Origin: a virus
Length of the DNA: 23,414 nt
IMG/VR virus record: IMGVR_UViG_3300047352_000553
Location: 1-23,414 of that record
Strand: one strand, 5' to 3'
Part shown: piece after piece, positions 2 to 23,414 of the stretch
How positions within the stretch are numbered: the stretch's first letter is position 1
How the letters are laid out: each line of letters opens with the position of its first letter
Position numbers and translations under genes: made by a program
Notes under the pieces: model-generated
Told to the model about the DNA's origin: nothing
Databases searched by the model: none
What the model saw: only the letters and a program-made list of their open reading frames with translations

Positions 2-358
2 TTCCGACCGCTTGGCGAGTCCGATGCGACCACAACCTACTACGGGACGCTGTTGCATGAGCTTACCCACTGGACGGGTCACCGCTCGCGCAAGGATCGT
101 TTCGAGAAGTTCACCCGCTTCGGCGATGAGGCCTACGCCTTTGAGGAATTGATCGCTGAGATGGGTGCGGTATTCGCTTGTGCCGCTCTAGGTATCGAAC
201 GGACTCCGCGTCCCGATCATGCCGAGTACATCGCCGCATGGTTGCGGGTACTCAAGAAGGACAGCAAGGCCATCGTATCGGCGGCTAAGCAAGCTCAGGA
301 GGCGTTCGAGTTTCTGGACGCCTTCGCTAACCCCATCGAACTGGATCAAGCGGCGTGA
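2..358 (+). CDS. Polyvalent-type zinc metallopeptidase, C-terminal part (5' end outside window)
   Basis: The frame is open from the left edge, so only the last 118 codons are present. The visible part has a YYGTLLHELTHWTGH segment with a zincin HExxH motif (HELTH), followed by EAYAFEELIAEMGA, whose glutamates are typical of the third-ligand region. The order matches the C-terminal metallopeptidase domain of ArdC/MPTase-PolyVal proteins, which occur on phages and plasmids next to an N-terminal ssDNA-binding domain. Known members protect incoming DNA or act on entry; that role is inferred here. The C-terminal helix (about the last 45 residues) also fits the family. A second, much larger polyvalent protein lies on the other strand at the right end of the window. 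The domain call is firm, the biological role is not. Confidence 0.85.
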   Translation, partial: FRPLGESDATTTYYGTLLHELTHWTGHRSRKDRFEKFTRFGDEAYAFEELIAEMGAVFACAALGIERTPRPDHAEYIAAWLRVLKKDSKAIVSAAKQAQEAFEFLDAFANPIELDQAA

Positions 359-408: not shown

Positions 409-846
409 ATGACAAACGCAAACGAAATCAGAGAGTCACTTGCTGTTGCCCGCGAGCAAGTCAAGGAAGCAAAAGCAAAGCTTGAGACCGCTCGGGGCGT
501 TCTCCAGATGCAACGCGGCAAGGTCATACAGTTAGAACGGGATCTGAGCGCCGCTATCGATCAGGAAGCGAAACGCGCTACCAACCGCGACCGCGCCGCC
601 GCCAAGCGAGCCGCCAAGAAGTATTCGATCGCCATAACCGATGAGGGGGCTTGGGATATGGACGGCTACGATTTTCGGCACTGGGTGGGCTGTCCTGACT
701 GGCTCGACGAAGACCCGCTCGAAGACGGTCACTACGCCTACGACTGGGCCGACACCCGATGGCTGGTGGAGTTTTACGCCAAGCATCACCCGACCCACCC
801 GAAGCACAGCGAGCGCGAGTTTCTCGCCATCTCGCCTTGGAACTAA
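409..846 (+). CDS. Small coiled-coil protein of unknown function
   Basis: I chose the ATG at 409 because AGGAG at 398-402 lies 6 bases upstream; a longer frame from 355 would start inside the previous stop. The 145-residue product has a heptad-rich, Lys/Glu/Ala-rich helix over residues 5-70, very probably a coiled coil. After that comes a tryptophan- and acid-rich tail (residues 80-145) ending in SPWN. I recognise no family. It is the first complete gene of the accessory block. Its TAA stop (844-846) is followed within one base by the first hammerhead ribozyme, so its mRNA 3' end would be made by RNA self-cleavage. The function is unknown. Confidence 0.8.
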   Translation: MTNANEIRESLAVAREQVKEAKAKLETARGVLQMQRGKVIQLERDLSAAIDQEAKRATNRDRAAAKRAAKKYSIAITDEGAWDMDGYDFRHWVGCPDWLDEDPLEDGHYAYDWADTRWLVEFYAKHHPTHPKHSEREFLAISPWN

Positions 847-847
847 C

Positions 848-903
848 CCCATCTGATGAGCCTGTCTGGACGGCAGGCGAAACGCCCTTCGGGGCGTCAT
901 GGG
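848..903 (+). ncRNA. Hammerhead ribozyme, type I (copy A)
   Basis: All conserved core elements are present in order. Stem I is CCCAU (848-852) with AUGGG (899-903). The CUGAUGA box is at 853-859. Stem II is GCCUG (860-864) with CAGGC (874-878). GAAA is at 879-882. Stem III is ACGCCC (882-887) with GGGCGU (892-897), capped by a UUCG tetraloop. C898 takes the place of the cleavage nucleotide C17, so cutting is expected between 898 and 899. The open end is in stem I, which makes it type I. A possible outer extension pairs UGG near 838-840 with CCA at 907-909 across an internal loop, as expected for loop I-loop II contacts. It starts one base after the stop codon of the preceding gene. Confidence 0.93.
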
Positions 904-914
904 AATCCACCCAT

Positions 915-930
915 CCCCACACCACTGGGG
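915..930 (+). promoter_or_regulatory. Leader hairpin with CACCAC hexaloop (copy A)
   Basis: Downstream of the predicted ribozyme cut, CCCCA (915-919) pairs with UGGGG (926-930) around the loop CACCAC. It lies in the 52-base leader between the cut and the ATG at 951. The same loop on a different stem occurs in the second ribozyme leader and in the leader upstream of 15181. The hairpin ends 10 bases before the GGAGA ribosome-binding site at 941. Confidence 0.6.
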
Positions 931-950
931 TAACCAATTTGGAGAACGAC

Positions 951-1349
951 ATGGGAATGTTTAGCTGGAAGACAAACGACACGCGCAAATCTATCTGGAA
1001 CAGGTACTCGGATCGCGGAACCTTTCGCGTCTACATGGTTGACCACTTGGGCAACCAGTGGATCGAGGATAACTACGAAGGCTACGGCGAGTTCGGCGGC
1101 AAAGACTTTTACGAACTGCTCGCCGAAATGAATGGTCTGCGACCCGAGGATTCAATTGCCGAGGATAGCGGCTGTCAGGGTGTCCGCGCCATGTTGGAGA
1201 GAGCCGAGGGCTACACCGACAAGATGCGGCTACTGGGCATTGATCTGTGGCACGGCGACAGGCCGTTCATCTCTCCGCAGTTGACCGAGAAGCCTCGGAA
1301 AAGGTCTGCGGGAACACCGCCGCAGGACTGCCCGCATCAGGGCTTCTGA
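951..1349 (+). CDS. Conserved small phage-type protein, unknown function, flanked by two hammerhead ribozymes
   Basis: ATG at 951 has GGAG at 941-944 with 6-base spacing; a second in-frame ATG is at 957. The 132-residue product has an aromatic, Gly-rich N-terminal half (residues 10-60, with patterns like NYEGYGEFGGKDFYELLAEM) that resembles small uncharacterised proteins common in proteobacterial phages, and a more polar, Pro-rich tail. I cannot name a domain. The gene is enclosed by two type I hammerheads: the upstream one cuts 52 bases before the start codon, and the downstream one begins 2 bases after the stop. Double cleavage would release a 506-base RNA (899-1404) carrying this gene alone, with 5'-OH and 2',3'-cyclic phosphate ends. 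Confidence 0.82.
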   Translation: MGMFSWKTNDTRKSIWNRYSDRGTFRVYMVDHLGNQWIEDNYEGYGEFGGKDFYELLAEMNGLRPEDSIAEDSGCQGVRAMLERAEGYTDKMRLLGIDLWHGDRPFISPQLTEKPRKRSAGTPPQDCPHQGF

Positions 1350-1351
1350 CG

Positions 1352-1409
1352 CCCGTCTGATGATGGCTGGAGGGATACCAGCCGAAACGCCCCGATGGGG
1401 CGTCACGGG
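1352..1409 (+). ncRNA. Hammerhead ribozyme, type I (copy B, one extra core base)
   Basis: Same plan as copy A with compensatory changes. Stem I is CCCGU (1352-1356) with ACGGG (1405-1409). CUGAUGA is at 1357-1363. Stem II is GGCUGG (1365-1370) with CCAGCC (1378-1383), loop AGGGAUA. GAAA is at 1384-1387. Stem III is ACGCCCC (1387-1393) with GGGGCGU (1397-1403). C1404 is the cleavage base. U1364 is an extra unpaired base between A9 of the core and stem II; an extra base at this junction is known from a natural viroid hammerhead, so activity is still expected but may differ. The element starts 2 bases after the preceding stop codon and lies 52 bases from the next start, the same leader length as copy A. 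Confidence 0.9.
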
Positions 1410-1421
1410 AATCCATCTCGT

Positions 1422-1435
1422 CCCCCACCACGGGG
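1422..1435 (+). promoter_or_regulatory. Leader hairpin with CACCAC hexaloop (copy B)
   Basis: CCCC (1422-1425) pairs with GGGG (1432-1435) around CACCAC. It has the same loop and the same distance to the next ATG (25 bases) as the copy at 915-930, while the surrounding sequence has diverged. The conserved flanks GGGAATCCA upstream and ACCAA downstream show that the whole ribozyme-leader unit was duplicated. Confidence 0.6.
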
Positions 1436-3758: not shown

Positions 3759-3983
3759 ATGGAAGAGGAAGAGTTTAAGTTTTTCGATCAGGTGAAGAAG
3801 CATGACTTCTGGTACTCAATGTCTGACGACCATCGCGCATGGGAGAAGGGCCAAAATGAGAGAGCCAGCATCGGTCTCATGCTTCAGGCCTACCCAGAGC
3901 TTATGTGGATCTGGGACAAGTTCTGTCGGGCCATGGAGTCTGGCAGGTGTCCTCTCAGTCTGGAGGAACTGCGGCGTGATTGA
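3759..3983 (+). CDS. Small acidic protein, unknown function
   Basis: ATG at 3759 has a perfect GGAGG at 3746-3750 with 8-base spacing. The 74-residue product starts MEEEEFKFFD and is rich in Trp, Met and acidic residues; it is probably all-helical. No motif identifies it. Its last codons overlap the GTG start of the next gene (3976), and GGAGG at 3962-3966 lies inside it as the next ribosome-binding site. Confidence 0.75.
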   Translation: MEEEEFKFFDQVKKHDFWYSMSDDHRAWEKGQNERASIGLMLQAYPELMWIWDKFCRAMESGRCPLSLEELRRD

Positions 3984-13125: not shown

Positions 13126-14196
13126 ATGAGTGACCGCGAAACCGTAGCGTTCAGAGAAGTTGCTGAACGGTACATCAAGCAACCGAGCAAACGGCTAGGA
13201 AGGCCGAAAAGTCCTGCGGCTAGGAAGGCTATCGAAGATGCCATTGATCGCTTCGGTGATCGGCCCATCGATAGTTTTGGAGTGTGTGACGTGACTGACT
13301 TTGTCGAAGATCTACAGGAGATCGGCTTCAAGAACGCGACCATCAATTCTAGGTTGCGCTACTTCGTTGCTGTCCTCAACTACGCTAAAAACAAGCGTGG
13401 CCTGATCGAAGCACAGAATGTCCCGTCTTTTGAAAACCTCAACACCAGCGAGGATGCGCGAGAACCCAAAGTTTTGGGGGAGAAAGAAGTGCATCGCCTG
13501 CTGTTCTGCCTACCGAAGCTTCAGGGATCGATGGCGAAATTCGCACTGGCCACTGGCCTGCGTGTCTCGAACGTCCAGAACCTCCTGTGGAGCGAAGTAG
13601 AGGACGGCATGATGGATATCAAGGCATCCAAGATGAAGGGCGGCAAGCGCTTGTTTGTGCCCCTCTCTGACGAGGCCTTGAAGATCCTGAGTAAGCAGAG
13701 GCAGATTCAGGAGGAGCGTCACCAGCGGCCTGAGTACGTCTTTACGAGACGCAACGGCAAGCCCTTGGGTAACCGCACCAGCGTAACGAACAGGACGTGG
13801 AGACGCGCCTGTGCGAAAGCAGAGGTGGGTAACGTCAGGTTTCACGACCTGCGACACACTTGGGCAACGCGCCATGTGCTGTCTGGTACGCCATTGCCTT
13901 TGCTTCAGAAGCTGGGCGGCTGGAACAGCATGGCAATGCTGGAGAAGTACACACACCTTAGCTCAATGGACATGAAGAACTTCGTGAACAACGGCACTTC
14001 AGTGCCGAGAAATTCCTATATTCAGAATGAGCCTTCGGAGGGCGGCATAGAACATTCGGTTATAGATGAAGCGCACAACTCCAGTGTTGCGCTAAAACGG
14101 CCTAGTAAAATGGTGGTGGAGCCAGACGGGATCGAACCGTCGACCTCAACACTGCCAGTGTTGCGCTCTAAAAAGACCGTAACACACGCGGCTTAG
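13126..14196 (+). CDS. int: Tyrosine-family phage integrase, 3' end reading through attP
   Basis: ATG 13126 has AGGAG 6 bases upstream. The 356-residue protein has an N-terminal SAM-like domain (residues 1-110) and a C-terminal catalytic domain. Visible catalytic residues are Arg146 (ATGLRVSN), a Lys near 171 (KMKGGKR), His240 and Arg243 (HDLRHTW), Trp266 in the fifth position (LGGWNS), and Tyr275 (LEKYTHLS). The last ~27 codons, from about residue 330, are antisense to a tRNA-Ala fragment (the classic VEPDGIEPSTS false-tail pattern). They are therefore dictated by attP, and would change when the phage integrates. A terminator follows 14 bases after the stop. Confidence 0.95.
   Translation: MSDRETVAFREVAERYIKQPSKRLGRPKSPAARKAIEDAIDRFGDRPIDSFGVCDVTDFVEDLQEIGFKNATINSRLRYFVAVLNYAKNKRGLIEAQNVPSFENLNTSEDAREPKVLGEKEVHRLLFCLPKLQGSMAKFALATGLRVSNVQNLLWSEVEDGMMDIKASKMKGGKRLFVPLSDEALKILSKQRQIQEERHQRPEYVFTRRNGKPLGNRTSVTNRTWRRACAKAEVGNVRFHDLRHTWATRHVLSGTPLPLLQKLGGWNSMAMLEKYTHLSSMDMKNFVNNGTSVPRNSYIQNEPSEGGIEHSVIDEAHNSSVALKRPSKMVVEPDGIEPSTSTLPVLRSKKTVTHAA
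14114..14169 (-). other. attP core: 3' fragment of tRNA-Ala(GGC)
   Basis: Read on the - strand, the fragment starts in the 3' half of the D stem (AGAGCG). It has a CAACA/TGTTG anticodon stem with loop CTGGCAG (anticodon GGC), the variable loop, a perfect T arm (GACGG, TTCGATC, CCGTC), the acceptor strand TGGCTCC, A73 and CCA. U70 gives the G3:U70 alanine signature. The 5' acceptor strand and most of the D arm are missing, so this is not a functional tRNA but the overlap an integrase uses to restore the host gene. It lies inside the integrase 3' end. Confidence 0.85.
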
Positions 14197-16858: not shown

Positions 16859-17021
16859 AGGTTCCGCCTCTGCGCTTGTACTCTTTGGTCAGCCATCCAG
16901 AGGCGTAGGCTGATGGCCACACCTTGAACTTGCGCTTGGCCTCTGACTTGACCCGTGAGTACAGCGCCTTGTTCTTTGGGGTAGCGCCCTTCTTCGCCTT
17001 AGACTTTGCTTTCTTTGTCAT
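16851..17021 (-). CDS. 56-residue DUF5872-like protein
   Basis: ATG 17021 overlaps the stop of the polyvalent gene (ATGA) and has GGGAGG 7 bases upstream. The product has a Lys-rich start (TKKAKSKAKKGATPK) and then NKALYSRVKSEAKRKFKVWP and SAYASGWLTKEYKRRGGTY, the recognisable DUF5872 pattern (ALY-RVK-EAKRKF-V-PSAYA). The family occurs in phages and eukaryotic viruses and has no assigned activity. The gene is short but complete and fills an otherwise empty 160-base gap. Confidence 0.8.
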   Translation of the reverse strand: MTKKAKSKAKKGATPKNKALYSRVKSEAKRKFKVWPSAYASGWLTKEYKRRGGTYA

Positions 17022-20000
17022 CGCGTAGCCTCCCTGTAACGCTTGTTAAAGCTGTCGTAGACCTTCTGCATCTCAGCTTCGATTATTTGAATCTGGTCGT
17101 AAGCTTTGATCGGATCCTTCTGGGTTTTCTCAACCTGCTTCTTGCGCTGTCGGAGCTTGCGCAGTTTCTTTTGCGCCTCCTTGTACAACGGCTCCAGTCG
17201 AGCAACAGAACCGAAATCCTGCATGAACCGCAGTCGATCTTGACCAGATGTCTCACCCGCCTCTTTGAAGATCTGTGTTGCAGAGCCGATGTTGTCGTAA
17301 TACTCAATCTTGTCTGCGTAGTCAGATGGCTCGCCAAAGAAGTAGCGCACAATCGGAATGTCAGACGCCGTGATCTCTTCGTCCTCTGGGCTGTTGTACT
17401 TGGCCGCGAGATCAGAGGAGCGATTGACGAATCGACCTAGTCCGCCCAGCAGGTATTCCTGCATGTACTGCATCCCGTCAGGCGATACGTCGATAGTTCC
17501 AGATCTATACATCGAGCCGCCTGTCGCCTCGTTCATCCATTCAGCGATATCTCGGTAGACCTGAGAGGTAGATCGCTTGGCGCGTGTAGCGTCCGGAGCC
17601 GCAGGACGGATCAACGGGTTGTCCTCCAGATACAGGGGAGCGCCGAAGTGGTTGGTGTTGGTTGCGTACTGCACAACTGGCTCTGCAATTGATGGCGCAA
17701 TGTTTCCAAGCATCAGAGAGCCGAACTCATCAAGGTCATCCACCTTGCCGACAGATCCGACAAAACCAAGCGGCGGCGGAAGCATGTGATGCGCAAACGA
17801 GGCAGTCAGTTCTGCCGCCACATCACCAGAGTCCTTGTTCTCGTTCATGAACTCTGCGCCCAGACGCCCCAGCGTGTGGAAGAATCCGTAACCGTATGGC
17901 ATCGGGATCTGAGCAAACGTCTTGCCGTCGTCCAGCACCATGTTCCAAGACATCAAGTGGTCGTAGTCAGACAGATCGTTGTAAACCGACTCGCCATCTT
18001 CGTCCTCGTCAGATGCGCCGAGGTTGTGCTGGGTAACCATGTAGGCCAGCAGAGCAATGCTTGCCGCCCCGATCTGAGCTTTGTTTAAACCGCCGTCAGC
18101 AGTTTTTCCAGTCATGGCTTGAGCGATGTTGGCTGTACCCTGCACTGCCGCATTGAAGAACAGGTAGAACAGGTTCAAGCCATCAGATATCTCACCCTTA
18201 CGGTTGAAGTTGACCGTCAAGTTCTTGGCAAGGTTCGCCGCCTTCTGCACTGACACGCCGGCCTCTCTCGCGGAGACGTAGGTAGCAAAGCGCACAGCGT
18301 TCTCTGATGCCGTGTTCAGGAACTCAATCTCTCGAAGACCCTGCTTGCCCTTCGCCTTGAGCGGGCCATCAGTTACCAGAGCGAACAGGCGATCCCGTTG
18401 CTCTTCGATGTCCTTTGTCAGGGTTAGGCCAGTCGGTGCGCCAGCTTCTGTGTACTCTGTGTAGTAGGCGTCGTACTCGTTGTCTGCCTTGTTTCCGCGC
18501 AGATTTTTGTAGTACGCGCTGTATGCCGGAAGGTAGCGGCGGAGGATCTCTCCCGTCAGCTTCTCGCCCTCAACCATGCCGCCCTCTTTGCTTTCCTGCG
18601 CGAGGTTGTACATCAGGCCAGTCTGGATATCTCGGAGCGGGTTAATCAGGAACCAGCTTGGGTTCCAGTTGATAAGCATGTTGCGGCGGAAGTTCTGGAA
18701 CTTGCGCATGAAGTTAGCGGTTGATCCCAAGAAGTTGACCAGACCGTCATAGTTCTCAGCGCCAGCGTTGTGTAGAGTCCGGTTCAAGGCATCATTCTTG
18801 ATCTCAATGAACACCTCGTTGCCGTTTTCTTTGACGGTCAGGAACCGCTTGTCGCCACTTCTGCGCCTAGCCCTGCGCATATCATTAGCGCCCATCCTGC
18901 GGCGTGTCACTTGGCCTCTGGCATCCTGCTCGTCCATGAAGGGGTAGTCATCTTCGGGCCTGTATACCTTGACCTGATCGCTACCCTGCTCCACCAAGGC
19001 ATCAGAAAGACTCAAGAATTGTCTGCTAGGCTCACTCCTACGCGCCCTAACGACCTTCTCTTCTGAGTCGGCAATTGCGAAAAGCATTGGATTTTCAGAC
19101 TGAGACTGACGTCCCAGAGCCTTGAGCGCCTCTTTGCCGGCGATATTGAATCCACTGGGCAGGCCTCTCTTGGGAGCTACTACTTCGCCGTCCTCTCTGG
19201 TGGACGCAAAGCCCTTGAGCGGGACGTAGAACTGGTATCGATCCTGCCAAGCGTCGATAGTGTTCTCATCGACCAACTCAAACTCGACCATGCGCTCTCT
19301 GTTGGCGGCAAGCATGTCGTAAACAATCTGAGATGCCTTCAGGTAGGACGGGTTCTCAAGCTGTTCAATGACTCGCTCAGCGTCTGCGGTAAGCATCCCC
19401 GAGCCGCCATCAGGCAGGCGCTCATTGATTGAAGCGATGTACTCATTTCGCTCTTTCGCGTGTTTCGCAATCAGGTACAGACCGAAGTCATCGATGTCGA
19501 TGTCGTTGTCCTGCAAGATTTTTGCAAGCGGCGCGATGAACTGCTTTTCGATCTCATCAAGATCTGTCGCCACACGACCTGAGTGCAGTGTCTCGCCGAC
19601 GTAAGCCTGCATGTGGTCGGGCAGTTCTTTCAGGCCAAGGAAGTCCGCCGCCGCCTGCTCGAACTTCTTGAGAGGCAGATACTTGTCTTGGATTCTGCGC
19701 AGGAAAAGCTCGCCGCGAGTTTCATCGTCTAGAGTGAACTCGTTGCTAGACAAGTCTCCGTTGAGCAACTCGCCCTTGTTAGAAGCGTCTTCGTGAGAGT
19801 TGCTTTGGCCAGTGACGCGACGGAACATGGGCATACCGTCGGTCTTGACCTGTGCCCGAAGCTCTTCGCTGATTGGATACACCCAGAAGCCAGTTGGCTC
19901 GTCGACCATATTTTTAAGGTTTTGGTCGTTCATTGTCTGGGCGGGAACGCCCATCAGCTTGTCAAAAACTTTCTTCAGCTTCTTGTCATAGATTGCGTCG

Positions 20001-23000
20001 TAGTCGTAGTTCGCACTCCAACGGCTTTGAACACGGGCACCCTTTGAGAAAGCAACAGAATCTGCGCCTGCCATTACCGCGTCACGAATGAGTCCCTTGG
20101 CGGCAAGGTCAAGGTACTGATCGTTTCGGAAAGGAGAGTCTGGCGGTGCGCTAGAAAGCTTGTAGCCTCTATCTCTAATCCTCTCCTGATCCCCCCGAGC
20201 GGCAAACACATTTGATTGATAGTCAAAAGCATCTCTAATCGTGTCTTTGATTTTTTGCCTCGACGCAGGCAGATCGTCATAGGCAGGAGAAAATGGCAAC
20301 ACGCCAATGAAATCAAAATAGTCTTCTGAGAAAGCTTTCAGCGCGGCAATGTTATGGCTATACGTTAGCGCTTCCTGTAATTCGTCGTAGTTTTCGCTAT
20401 TTATGCTCTTAAACCATCTCTCAAGATCTTTCTTGAGAGCGCTCATCATTGTCGCTCTAATATCTGCCGCCGCTTCTGATGTTGGCTCACCTCTCTGACC
20501 AGCCAGCGTTGCAAATTTTTCCAGCCCCTCTCGCGTGAGGATCGGCTCAAGCTTATTGAACACACGGCCAAGGCGGTAAGCCGCCCTATCTAGGGTATCG
20601 CCTGACTCATTGGCTCGACGGTTGTCTGGGTATATGTCCTCACTCGGAGTAAACCGCCTTCTGACGTGCTGATCGTTCTCTAGATCAATCAAAGCATCTT
20701 GAAGCTTTCTTGAATTATCTAACTCTTCTTGATTGACCGCCCGTATTTCTTTTGCATTTTCGTCAAGAAGATCTTGGTCAAAAGGCCCGCCTGCCCTGCG
20801 GATATCGCTGTGCCAATCGGACTGAAGCTCTTCGATGGCGAGAACATTTCCAAAGCCAAACGATTTGCGCTCGGTTATCAACGCATGAAAAAGCACGTTT
20901 TCGTGATCGAAGTGGCCTCCCCTAAAGTCTCTCTTGTCCTGACCGAAGACAAGATTATTGTTTTCAAGAACGACCACCTTTTCTTGGTACTCGACAATGT
21001 CATCAGGATCTATTTTTAAGTAGCCGAAGAAGCGGGTATCGCCCGCATCTCGCATTAGGCCGTTTTCTAATGCGTAGGTTTGAAACTGGATACGCGCCTC
21101 ATCTATGTCATAGAGAACATCGTGTACTTCATTGCCGCCTGTATCCGCCCCGTAAAGGCCGGTTTCTCCGTTGCCCCTAATGTATCCAAGCGTCGTATAT
21201 CCCCCGAAACTACGCGAGTCAGAAACGTAAACTTCGTACACATACTCAGGCTCGCTATCTAGGTAAACATCTCTTGCCTCTTGCCAAGTAATCTCTTCTA
21301 AATCGGCTTCAAATACTGATTTGAGGCGCTCATAGAGGTCTAGCTCTATCTCCGTGTATCTTTCAGACAGATCTGTCGGAGTTATTCCAGCATCATTAGG
21401 AAGCCCACCAAGATCTTCCTCAATAAGCTCACGGAAGGATGAAGGTCTTTGACGCGCCAATTCATTGAGGACTCTCTTGGGGCCATACTCATCCCACTCG
21501 TTCCTCTCCATTGAGTACGTCCACTCGTCATAGTAGTGCTCGTAATAATCTGGAGAATCTTGAATCTCGCCATCCGAAACGGTTATGTCTTGCTGGTTGT
21601 CCTCTCCGAGGCCTGTCTCGACGTACTCCTCTAGTTCAGGGCTTCTGTCCTGAACGAAATCGATCACCTCTTCACGGGTAAATCGGTCTGCCGGCTTTCC
21701 AGACATCTCGGCAAGCTGGCTGATGTCTAGACCTCTGAGGGTTTGATTGATGGCATAGATATTGAATACCTCGTCCGAGGCTTCGTTCATCTCACTTATT
21801 GCCGCAGGAGAAAGGTTTGTCCTGTTATCGTCTGGGGATCGGTTCTCAAAGTAGTCAGTAATGACTTTTCTTAGATTTGCGTTTTTCTTAGCTACGTCAA
21901 TCTCTCCGTTCTCGTCCAGAGAGTTAGGCTCAACCTTTGCGTGAACTCTATTAACGAATATCGTGAGCGCAGTGTCGTCTCGCTCAAAAGATAAGGGGTC
22001 AGTGAGGAACTGCTCCAGCTTGGTATAACGGTTCTCCTCTTTCTTCAGGCCTCTAGCCTTCAAGAATGAGATGATCTGGTCGCCCTTCACGCTACCGTCT
22101 GGATTCTTTTTAGAGGGCTTGAAGATCTTGTCGCCTTCATCCAGTAGAGTCTGCTCAGCGTTGCTGTACAGGCCCATCCTGTCTGTCATCGCCCTGCCAC
22201 CGACGCGGCTAAACAGCGGCTGTCCGTCCTGACGGGCCTGATCGTTGCGGAAGTAGTCTTCGCGAGCGTTCTTGGCGATCAGAGAAATGTCACTGGCCCG
22301 CATGGTAGACAGCTTTGCAAATCCGTTACGTCGCAACCAATCGCGGATAGCGCCAATCACTTCACGAATACGAGACTTGAGCGTGTTGCCACCCTGCTCG
22401 CCTGTGTAAGCCAGCATCTCGCTGACCATGATGTAGTTTCGGGTTTCTCTGCTGTACCTTGCTTCGCGAGCGCCCTGCTCGTATGTCTTGAGTTGCTCCT
22501 GAATACCAAGATCAGAAGCAATCTTGTCGAAGCCTTTCTGTCCGCCCATCGCCTCGAACATTCCGTTCAGCGACCGCGAAACGCCCTCATCAGCAAACAT
22601 CTGATTTATGCCGCCGTGAGTGCCTTCGTGAAGTAGCGCTCGCTCCAGTCGAGATGCGCTTCTCATGCGGCCCTTAACGATGTAGATTTGACCGTTATGA
22701 CTCACCCCATCAATGTCAGAACCATTCGATCCTTGCTGTCTGGCGGCTTCCTGAAGCTCCGCCGGAAGCTGGTCAAAACTATCGACGACGTTGATGAAAC
22801 GTCGGGCTTCTTGGTTCCCACCGATGACCCTATCAATAACCGTATTGAGTTCTTCGTCAGTAACGACAGGCCTTCGAGTCGCTCCTCTAGGCTCTGAGTC
22901 TCTGCGCGTCATCGGGGTGTCATCACCCGCCTGATAATCGGTGAGCGTCTCTAGACTTTCGTCAGGAGCCTGCACTTGAGGCTGTTCTGCCGGCGGCGCA

Positions 23001-23414
23001 TCTTCCAGCATCCCCTGAACATCAGCCGCGCCCATGCGGTCATCTGCCTGCAAAGCGGCCTGAACGTCAGAGCCTTCCATTCTGTCGTCTAGAGCGTTGC
23101 GGATGTCTGCCGCGCCCATCCTGTTGTCATCAACTGGCTGGGTCTGAGCCTGTGGATTCGTGATCGTGCGAATAGCATCGCTGATAGCGCTGGCAATAGA
23201 CGTAGCTACCCTGTCAGCAACGTCAGCTTCCGCCATGTCAGTCATGACAGCCGGCGCTGGGGCTGGCTCTGCCTCTTGTCTGGGGGCAACTGGCTGTGGA
23301 TCTATCGTTTCTGGCTGGCCTTCCTGCGCTCTGTCTGCAAGGTTGCCTTCGATTTCCTGCTGAGTGGGAGCCTGTGAAAGCGTTTGCTGAGTTTCTTGCA
23401 GGGCTGTAGCGCCC
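17018..23414 (-). CDS. Large polyvalent protein (5' end outside window)
   Basis: The frame is open from the right edge to the TGA at 17018, at least 2,131 residues; an ATG at 23245 is inside it and need not be the start. The N-terminal part is Gln/Pro/Ala-rich and disordered, with three degenerate DRMGAADV repeats. A zincin-like HEGTHGG (about residue 206 counted from that ATG) follows. The middle has polyvalent-associated segments such as LAIEELQSDWHSDIRRAGG. The C terminus has NWNPSWFLINPLRDIQTGLM and membrane-prone helices, like the LPD38-type end of such proteins. Polyvalent proteins are packaged in phage heads and injected to protect incoming DNA. That role is inferred. Confidence 0.85.
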   Translation of the reverse strand, partial: GATALQETQQTLSQAPTQQEIEGNLADRAQEGQPETIDPQPVAPRQEAEPAPAPAVMTDMAEADVADRVATSIASAISDAIRTITNPQAQTQPVDDNRMGAADIRNALDDRMEGSDVQAALQADDRMGAADVQGMLEDAPPAEQPQVQAPDESLETLTDYQAGDDTPMTRRDSEPRGATRRPVVTDEELNTVIDRVIGGNQEARRFINVVDSFDQLPAELQEAARQQGSNGSDIDGVSHNGQIYIVKGRMRSASRLERALLHEGTHGGINQMFADEGVSRSLNGMFEAMGGQKGFDKIASDLGIQEQLKTYEQGAREARYSRETRNYIMVSEMLAYTGEQGGNTLKSRIREVIGAIRDWLRRNGFAKLSTMRASDISLIAKNAREDYFRNDQARQDGQPLFSRVGGRAMTDRMGLYSNAEQTLLDEGDKIFKPSKKNPDGSVKGDQIISFLKARGLKKEENRYTKLEQFLTDPLSFERDDTALTIFVNRVHAKVEPNSLDENGEIDVAKKNANLRKVITDYFENRSPDDNRTNLSPAAISEMNEASDEVFNIYAINQTLRGLDISQLAEMSGKPADRFTREEVIDFVQDRSPELEEYVETGLGEDNQQDITVSDGEIQDSPDYYEHYYDEWTYSMERNEWDEYGPKRVLNELARQRPSSFRELIEEDLGGLPNDAGITPTDLSERYTEIELDLYERLKSVFEADLEEITWQEARDVYLDSEPEYVYEVYVSDSRSFGGYTTLGYIRGNGETGLYGADTGGNEVHDVLYDIDEARIQFQTYALENGLMRDAGDTRFFGYLKIDPDDIVEYQEKVVVLENNNLVFGQDKRDFRGGHFDHENVLFHALITERKSFGFGNVLAIEELQSDWHSDIRRAGGPFDQDLLDENAKEIRAVNQEELDNSRKLQDALIDLENDQHVRRRFTPSEDIYPDNRRANESGDTLDRAAYRLGRVFNKLEPILTREGLEKFATLAGQRGEPTSEAAADIRATMMSALKKDLERWFKSINSENYDELQEALTYSHNIAALKAFSEDYFDFIGVLPFSPAYDDLPASRQKIKDTIRDAFDYQSNVFAARGDQERIRDRGYKLSSAPPDSPFRNDQYLDLAAKGLIRDAVMAGADSVAFSKGARVQSRWSANYDYDAIYDKKLKKVFDKLMGVPAQTMNDQNLKNMVDEPTGFWVYPISEELRAQVKTDGMPMFRRVTGQSNSHEDASNKGELLNGDLSSNEFTLDDETRGELFLRRIQDKYLPLKKFEQAAADFLGLKELPDHMQAYVGETLHSGRVATDLDEIEKQFIAPLAKILQDNDIDIDDFGLYLIAKHAKERNEYIASINERLPDGGSGMLTADAERVIEQLENPSYLKASQIVYDMLAANRERMVEFELVDENTIDAWQDRYQFYVPLKGFASTREDGEVVAPKRGLPSGFNIAGKEALKALGRQSQSENPMLFAIADSEEKVVRARRSEPSRQFLSLSDALVEQGSDQVKVYRPEDDYPFMDEQDARGQVTRRRMGANDMRRARRRSGDKRFLTVKENGNEVFIEIKNDALNRTLHNAGAENYDGLVNFLGSTANFMRKFQNFRRNMLINWNPSWFLINPLRDIQTGLMYNLAQESKEGGMVEGEKLTGEILRRYLPAYSAYYKNLRGNKADNEYDAYYTEYTEAGAPTGLTLTKDIEEQRDRLFALVTDGPLKAKGKQGLREIEFLNTASENAVRFATYVSAREAGVSVQKAANLAKNLTVNFNRKGEISDGLNLFYLFFNAAVQGTANIAQAMTGKTADGGLNKAQIGAASIALLAYMVTQHNLGASDEDEDGESVYNDLSDYDHLMSWNMVLDDGKTFAQIPMPYGYGFFHTLGRLGAEFMNENKDSGDVAAELTASFAHHMLPPPLGFVGSVGKVDDLDEFGSLMLGNIAPSIAEPVVQYATNTNHFGAPLYLEDNPLIRPAAPDATRAKRSTSQVYRDIAEWMNEATGGSMYRSGTIDVSPDGMQYMQEYLLGGLGRFVNRSSDLAAKYNSPEDEEITASDIPIVRYFFGEPSDYADKIEYYDNIGSATQIFKEAGETSGQDRLRFMQDFGSVARLEPLYKEAQKKLRKLRQRKKQVEKTQKDPIKAYDQIQIIEAEMQKVYDSFNKRYREATR
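22997..23134 (-). repeat. Degenerate repeats in the polyvalent N-terminal linker
   Basis: Three tandem peptide units, DNRMGAADIRNAL, DDRMEGSDVQAAL and DDRMGAADVQGML, each of 13 residues and separated by 0-3 residues, share a D-R-M-x-x-x-D-[IV]-x-x-x-[LM] pattern. They lie in the low-complexity linker ahead of the metallopeptidase-like domain. They could be short binding motifs for a capsid or partner protein. Confidence 0.6.

Follow-up and report, generated by a model that had tools for sequence, protein, structure and literature searches.

In 2011, Perreault et al. reported clusters of hammerhead ribozymes lying between the genes of prophages, for Clostridium scindens, Azorhizobium and an ardA array of Agrobacterium, and proposed that such clusters split long phage transcripts (PMC3088659). 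Three tandem prophage arrays cut during in vitro transcription and one of them in E. coli, 4 of 18 consensus hammerheads were inactive in vitro, and a pseudoknot between stem I and stem II of the prophage hammerheads was published in the same work (PMC3088659). In a paper from 2023, the biological reason for the association of hammerheads with phage genes is given as unknown (PMC10085705). The synthetic insulator RiboJ consists of the sTRSV hammerhead and a 23-nt hairpin (PMC6206723, PMC7536230); it doubles the transcript level, for which the stability of the terminal hairpin has been offered as one possible reason (PMC6206723).

Here we describe a stretch of viral DNA of 23,414 nucleotides (the window, G000 in our set), in which two type I hammerheads follow the stop codons of small genes. 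Two pairing partners are available, one at a time, to the 3' strand of stem I (S'): its stem I partner (S) and S2, a second copy of the stem I 5' strand located 6-7 nt downstream of S'. What is new here is that S' is shared between stem I and the conserved downstream S2, an arrangement that we did not find described in the main texts of the open-access literature. The element as such is of a known kind, because clustered prophage hammerheads were already published; the likeness extends to the type I core, the multiple copies among small genes, the antirestriction neighbour and the pseudoknot between stems I and II (PMC3088659). The antirestriction gene is, however, ArdC-like in the window and ardA in the Agrobacterium array, and neither an S2 strand nor a refolded 5' end appears in those passages of the 2011 paper that describe the prophage clusters (PMC3088659).

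The locus resembles RiboJ in being a self-cutting leader, with cutting here predicted, that would leave a 5' hairpin ahead of the ribosome-binding site, whereas RiboJ is engineered, its hairpin was added, and no strand is described as common to hairpin and ribozyme. Emory et al. reportedly found in 1992 a 5'-terminal stem-loop of the ompA type on bacterial mRNA (cited in PMC7509114), likewise at the very 5' end of the message; the ompA-type end arises by transcription start, while the end in the window would arise by predicted ribozyme cleavage and carry a 5'-OH. In the AltH1 helices of Mahen et al. 2010 (PMC2817708), a nearby strand also competes for a strand of an essential ribozyme helix, but these belong to a laboratory construct of the hairpin ribozyme in yeast, whereas the strand in the window is natural and conserved.

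Results

Two type I hammerheads in a phage accessory gene array

The initial annotation had read one element, copy 1, as a complete type I hammerhead placed directly after a stop codon in a phage accessory operon. Its account of copy 1 was correct, while copy 2, the downstream strand with its covariation, the contact of loop II and the prior literature had been missed. The complete core of copy 1 is read directly from the sequence, including C17 at its expected place and a start that is separated from the TAA stop by the single base C847 (Table 1). The element has CUGANGA and GAA with A15.1-U16.1 and H17, and all three stems are present with II and III closed and I open, which is the type I layout. 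The exact hammerhead fold is the minimum free energy structure of copy 1 folded alone (-26.4 kcal/mol, z -2.5), and the covariance model R1, built from 45 hammerheads of other contigs to the exclusion of the window and its close subfamily, scores it at 55.1 bits (E 2.2e-17, a rough value).

Table 1. Features of the hammerhead array in the window (both copies and the genes around them).
Feature	Position	Strand	Basis or remark
C-terminal part of ArdC-like antirestriction gene, head of the array	2-358	+	PHROG 7245, PF18818
Upstream ORF, 145 aa, without known family; ATG 409, AGGAG 398-402	409-846	+	stop TAA 844-846
Type I hammerhead copy 1; RNA CCCAU CUGAUGA GCCUGUC-UGGAC-GGCAGGC GAA ACGCCC-UUCG-GGGCGU C AUGGG	848-903	+	core pattern, fold, covariance model R1
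Copy 1 stem I, S CCCAT / S' ATGGG	848-852/899-903	+	read from sequence
Copy 1 core CTGATGA	853-859	+	read from sequence
Copy 1 stem II GCCTGTC/GGCAGGC, loop TGGAC	860-878	+	read from sequence
Copy 1 UGGA in loop II; its complement UCCA at 906-909 within L'	867-870	+	GGA/UCC invariant 36/36
Copy 1 GAA	879-881	+	read from sequence
Copy 1 stem III ACGCCC TTCG GGGCGT	882-897	+	read from sequence
Copy 1 C17; predicted cut 898/899	898	+	read from sequence
Copy 1 alternative hairpin: S' AUGGG 899-903, L' AAUCCA 904-909, S2 CCCAU 910-914	899-914	+	covariation in relatives
Copy 1 second leader hairpin, CCCC-ACACCACU-GGGG	915-930	+	conserved in closest relatives; within predicted fold of 3' product
Downstream ORF, 132 aa, without known family; GGAG 941-944	951-1349	+	stop TGA 1347-1349 precedes copy 2
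Type I hammerhead copy 2	1352-1409	+	core pattern, detector, covariance model R1
Copy 2 stem I	1352-1356/1405-1409	+	core pattern
Copy 2 core CUGAUGA; extra U 1364	1357-1363	+	core pattern
Copy 2 stem II	1365-1383	+	core pattern
Copy 2 GAA	1384-1386	+	core pattern
Copy 2 stem III	1387-1403	+	core pattern
Copy 2 C17; predicted cut 1404/1405	1404	+	core pattern
Copy 2 alternative hairpin: S' ACGGG, L' AAUCCAU, S2 CUCGU, one G-U pair	1405-1421	+	sequence
Copy 2 second leader hairpin, CCCC-CACCAC-GGGG	1422-1435	+	sequence; copy 1/copy 2 repeat
ORF led by copy 2, 123 aa	1457-1828	+	absent at the corresponding place in phage L129

Copy 2, which begins three bases past a TGA and has one extra U between A9 and stem II, reaches 42.3 bits with R1 (E 9e-13, likewise rough). 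The third-best R1 match in the window has only 14.6 bits, and a loose core pattern gives two matches in the window compared with 0.09 expected by chance. Judged by their sequences, both copies are very likely to self-cleave. Many phage type I elements have an additional nucleotide at this point, which is U in 63 of the 471 collected (see below) and G in three more.

The accessory operon setting is supported: the array is headed by a gene for an ArdC-like antirestriction metallopeptidase (PHROG 7245 at 3.5e-37, PF18818 at 4e-35), an integrase (PF00589) is encoded on the same contig, and the sequence is a virus record. Both ribozymes sit between small ORFs without known family, so that several copies flank genes of one temperate-phage operon, as in a prophage cluster. 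In the window's subfamily, 13 of 31 loci have an ArdC relative close to the hammerhead, vs 19 of 274 other loci. A helicase search returned distant phages only, with about 25-30% identity among the matches listed, and a pattern scan of genome contigs gave 58 matches, among which the detector found 0 hammerheads. At the end of the integrase gene, positions 14081-14193 resemble the 3' half of a tRNA, with weak matches to cyano_tmRNA and plastid ycf2; ARAGORN called no tRNA, and the segment is probably an attachment site. The right quarter of the contig is taken up by a minus-strand ORF of at least 2131 aa (17018-23413) that runs off the end of the window.

Phage L129 is near-identical to the window (97-99% across most aligned stretches) and carries three hammerheads. 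The unmatched segments at 397-842 of the window and 1207-1702 of L129 end at most 5 nt from hammerheads, and the 123-aa gene is inserted directly after the copy 2 leader, with the unmatched segment spanning 1472-1817 of the window. Between these two otherwise near-identical phages, accessory genes are swapped or inserted at hammerhead borders.

Type I elements in viral contigs and their detection

Pattern scans of viral contigs, followed by the detector on all fetched DNA (4.0 Mb), yielded 302 loci with 471 unique type I elements in total, which is no frequency estimate because the loci were fetched by pattern; the detector found 0 elements in reversed-sequence controls. Up to 14 copies occur per record. 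Of the 471 elements, 91% are no more than 20 nt away from a stop codon that ends a frame of 40 codons or more, compared with 22% of random places; this stop abuts stem I in 267 and falls inside the 5' strand in 63, and the next start codon follows at a median of 26 nt beyond the cut. In 80 of the 471 elements, the stop of the upstream gene is the UGA within the catalytic core itself (CUGA). Compensatory changes among relatives affect both sides in 11 of 14 stem pairs, and the figure of 100% paired is partly given by construction because the set was chosen by pairing.

A match to the Rfam hammerhead models had been suggested as a check of copy 1, and its absence as a refutation. The match is indeed absent: the Rfam 15 hammerhead families gave 0 matches over the whole window at E<=5, and the region of copy 1 alone matched only RAGATH-1-hammerhead (RF03152), at 17.5 bits vs a cut-off of 56.3. 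This best sub-threshold family also combines the core with an extra hairpin, which is upstream, unlike the downstream one in the window. As a refutation, however, the test gives the wrong answer. Over ten loci searched at the gathering score, the only Rfam matches were type II hammerheads from two Streptomyces phages. The eight related loci that carry type I elements gave 0 matches, although the records of five of them have 1 to 14 R1 matches each. The absent match is a limitation of the Rfam models, because the intact type I elements of eight relatives are missed too, and Rfam was dropped as an arbiter for this reason. Rfam 15 thus misses phage type I hammerheads, an abundant class.

The BLAST matches in Streptomyces phages were ruled out as relatives of the element, since they are type II hammerheads. 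Streptomyces phage Alvy (L168, NC_054669.1 42560-51528; also L169) has ten of them above the Rfam cut-off and one below, all on one strand in a 9-kb array of small genes, where the annotated gene 84 overlies one. In locus L041, a twister-P1-like ribozyme (3805-3890, minus strand; 45 bits, E 4e-7, below the cut-off) shares its strand with six hammerheads.

A stem I strand with two conserved partners

In both copies, S' can fold back through L' onto S2 into an alternative hairpin, and compared with copy 1, the hairpin of copy 2 has changed along with its stem I. All five stem I pairs are canonical across the 38 members of the window's subfamily, while in the hairpin pairs 2-5 are canonical in 38/38 and pair 1 in just 17/38; the two most variable hairpin positions have four to five pair types each. 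The loss of pair 1 against the complete retention of pairs 2-5 therefore makes S2 more than a copied strand. Its origin as a target-site duplication or strand copy was ruled out by this loss and by L163 and L145, where a G-U pair of stem I corresponds to a Watson-Crick pair of the hairpin.

The hairpin covariation score in alignment A1 (36 rows) is 0.573, compared with 0.159 for shuffled and at most 0.10 for slid partners, and only the outer pairs are informative in it because the subfamily search pattern fixed two inner pairs. When the outer pairs were left free (25 rows), Watson-Crick pairs filled 47 of the 50 cells that the two informative positions provide (25/25 and 22/25), and 54 of 75 cells at all three free positions vs 28 in permutations; few independent changes lie behind this covariation, because the rows hold only five S' states. 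Beyond the subfamily, counted after removal of the search motif and dereplication (n=373), a hairpin of at least four Watson-Crick pairs with at least two G/C occurs in 59 elements vs 17 (swapped) or 20 (shuffled) expected, and stems with at least three G/C occur in 41 of 373 vs 6 to 9 expected. The alternative-hairpin arrangement is about threefold enriched there and is carried by a minority of the phage type I elements. In several sequence-unrelated families S' covaries with both partners at once, and the hairpin loops are diverse (AATCCA, GTCCT, ATAT, ATAA, AGCCAACCAA, CAAGA). A pattern requiring CCCC after AATCCA gave no matches, and a 5'-terminal hairpin as a general property of type I products was rejected, as pairing of product nt 2-5 outside the subfamily is 0.41 vs 0.39 shuffled.

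L' has a further complement in loop II. GGA/UCC is invariant in 36/36 subfamily rows and the flanking pairs are partly so, and outside the subfamily complements of loop II flank the element in 94 of 373 cases vs 47 expected. The matching loop II and L' sequences include UGGAU/AUCCA, AGGAC/GUCCU, GAGAC/GUCUC and UUGGCUU/AAGCCAA, with a pairing energy of -2.7 to -3.8 kcal/mol when the duplex is taken by itself. A tertiary pseudoknot between loop II and L' may well form.

Before cutting, the hammerhead and the alternative fold are near-isoenergetic, with a median difference of 0.2 kcal/mol in nearest-neighbour energies, which ignore tertiary contacts and thus leave out the loop II-L' pairing that favours the ribozyme. 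In the 3' product, the hairpin has a median energy of -5.1 kcal/mol and a median P of 0.88. P(stem I) of copy 1 is 0.93 with S' just made and drops to 0.13 at 17 nt past the cut, when S2 is out, and P(hairpin) is then 0.83. The trend of copy 2 is alike but less clean, with P(hairpin) about 0.6, and a RiboJ-like 5' hairpin before the ribosome-binding site is seen in the predicted fold of the copy 1 product only. Both copies run on into a conserved leader of 47 nt that is 77% identical between them. In the leaders of L148, L164, L125, L078 and L135, the Shine-Dalgarno sequence often appears to occupy the loop of a small hairpin immediately ahead of the start codon.

Discussion

The explanation of the whole that we favour, with some reservation, is co-transcriptional cleavage followed by refolding of S'. 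From the observed sequence, anatomy and operon position, the covariation of both pairings and their near-equal energies, we infer cleavage and every step in vivo as follows. One polycistronic phage transcript would be cut while it is being made, at both predicted sites, which fall just past the stop of one gene and 52 nt ahead of the next start codon. That the ribozymes would separate two mRNAs of one transcript, as the initial annotation also proposed, follows naturally from this arrangement and fits the layout of the 471 elements, and such processing probably takes place in vivo. The catalytic core would remain at the 3' end of the upstream mRNA with two stable hairpins and a 2',3'-cyclic phosphate, and the downstream mRNA would begin with a 5'-OH.

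During transcription, stem I would be the first to form, aided by the loop II-L' pairing. After cleavage, and with S2 transcribed, S' would quit stem I and fold with S2, placing a hairpin at nt 1-2 of the new mRNA. We lean towards such a strand exchange after cleavage, which would release the product, prevent religation and make cutting irreversible. In type II and type III hammerheads, topology dictates that the product begins with the closed stem I, and S2 would therefore give a type I element an equal 5' end. Each gene would thereby get a defined leader that is probably resistant to decay and independent of its context. In this respect the element would be a natural equivalent of RiboJ, the synthetic insulator, and we tentatively suggest that stabilisation or insulation may be the selected benefit. 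RNase E and G favour 5'-monophosphate ends, and in T4 infection the action of a kinase on 5'-OH ends promotes further cutting (PMC3014915).

The main rival explanation places the S'-S2 hairpin before cutting, as an off state of the ribozyme. If S2 were made before the cut, or if a ribosome on the adjacent stop covered S and the core, the RNA would stay joined, and cutting would report the translation of the upstream gene or the speed of RNA polymerase. Most elements have the stop codon directly against stem I or the core, or overlapping one of them, up to those in which the core UGA is itself the stop, the alternative fold wins in the uncut RNA once S2 is out, and competing helices beside a ribozyme control the assembly of the hairpin ribozyme in yeast (PMC2817708). 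We nevertheless regard such a gate as unlikely, since the loop II-L' pairing omitted from the fold favours the ribozyme by its isolated duplex energy, and compact phage genomes alone might place elements beside stop codons. We give a similarly low probability to the reading in which the hammerheads just separate mRNAs and S2 belongs to an ordinary leader hairpin without effect on the ribozyme. Most phage hammerheads do lack the hairpin and yet hold an equal position, but the simultaneous covariation of S' with both partners in sequence-unrelated families argues against S2 being neutral.

Even less probable is that the elements are maintained chiefly as short stretches of homology, or as hitchhikers, at places where accessory genes are exchanged. 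The shift of gene content at hammerhead borders between the window and L129 is consistent with this, but the intact core and the covariation would be left unexplained, and exchange at these borders may hold in addition to cleavage and refolding. An inactive chance motif, with which the missing Rfam match would agree, is extremely improbable in view of the E values of 2e-17 and 9e-13 from an independent model and of 471 relatives with intact cores vs 0 in reversed controls.

Cleavage with subsequent refolding of S' bears on the question of why phages keep hammerheads, to which the conserved second strand offers a concrete testable answer in the form of product release, a 5'-end hairpin or gating. 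In vivo tests are within reach because a cultivable Streptomyces phage has ten or more type II hammerheads. It is possible, although we consider it rather doubtful, that the locus represents a natural strand-exchange ribozyme that would either reset itself irreversibly after the cut or be switched off by timing or by a ribosome at the adjacent stop. If true, such a ribozyme would be a translation-coupled self-cutting switch in use by many phages.
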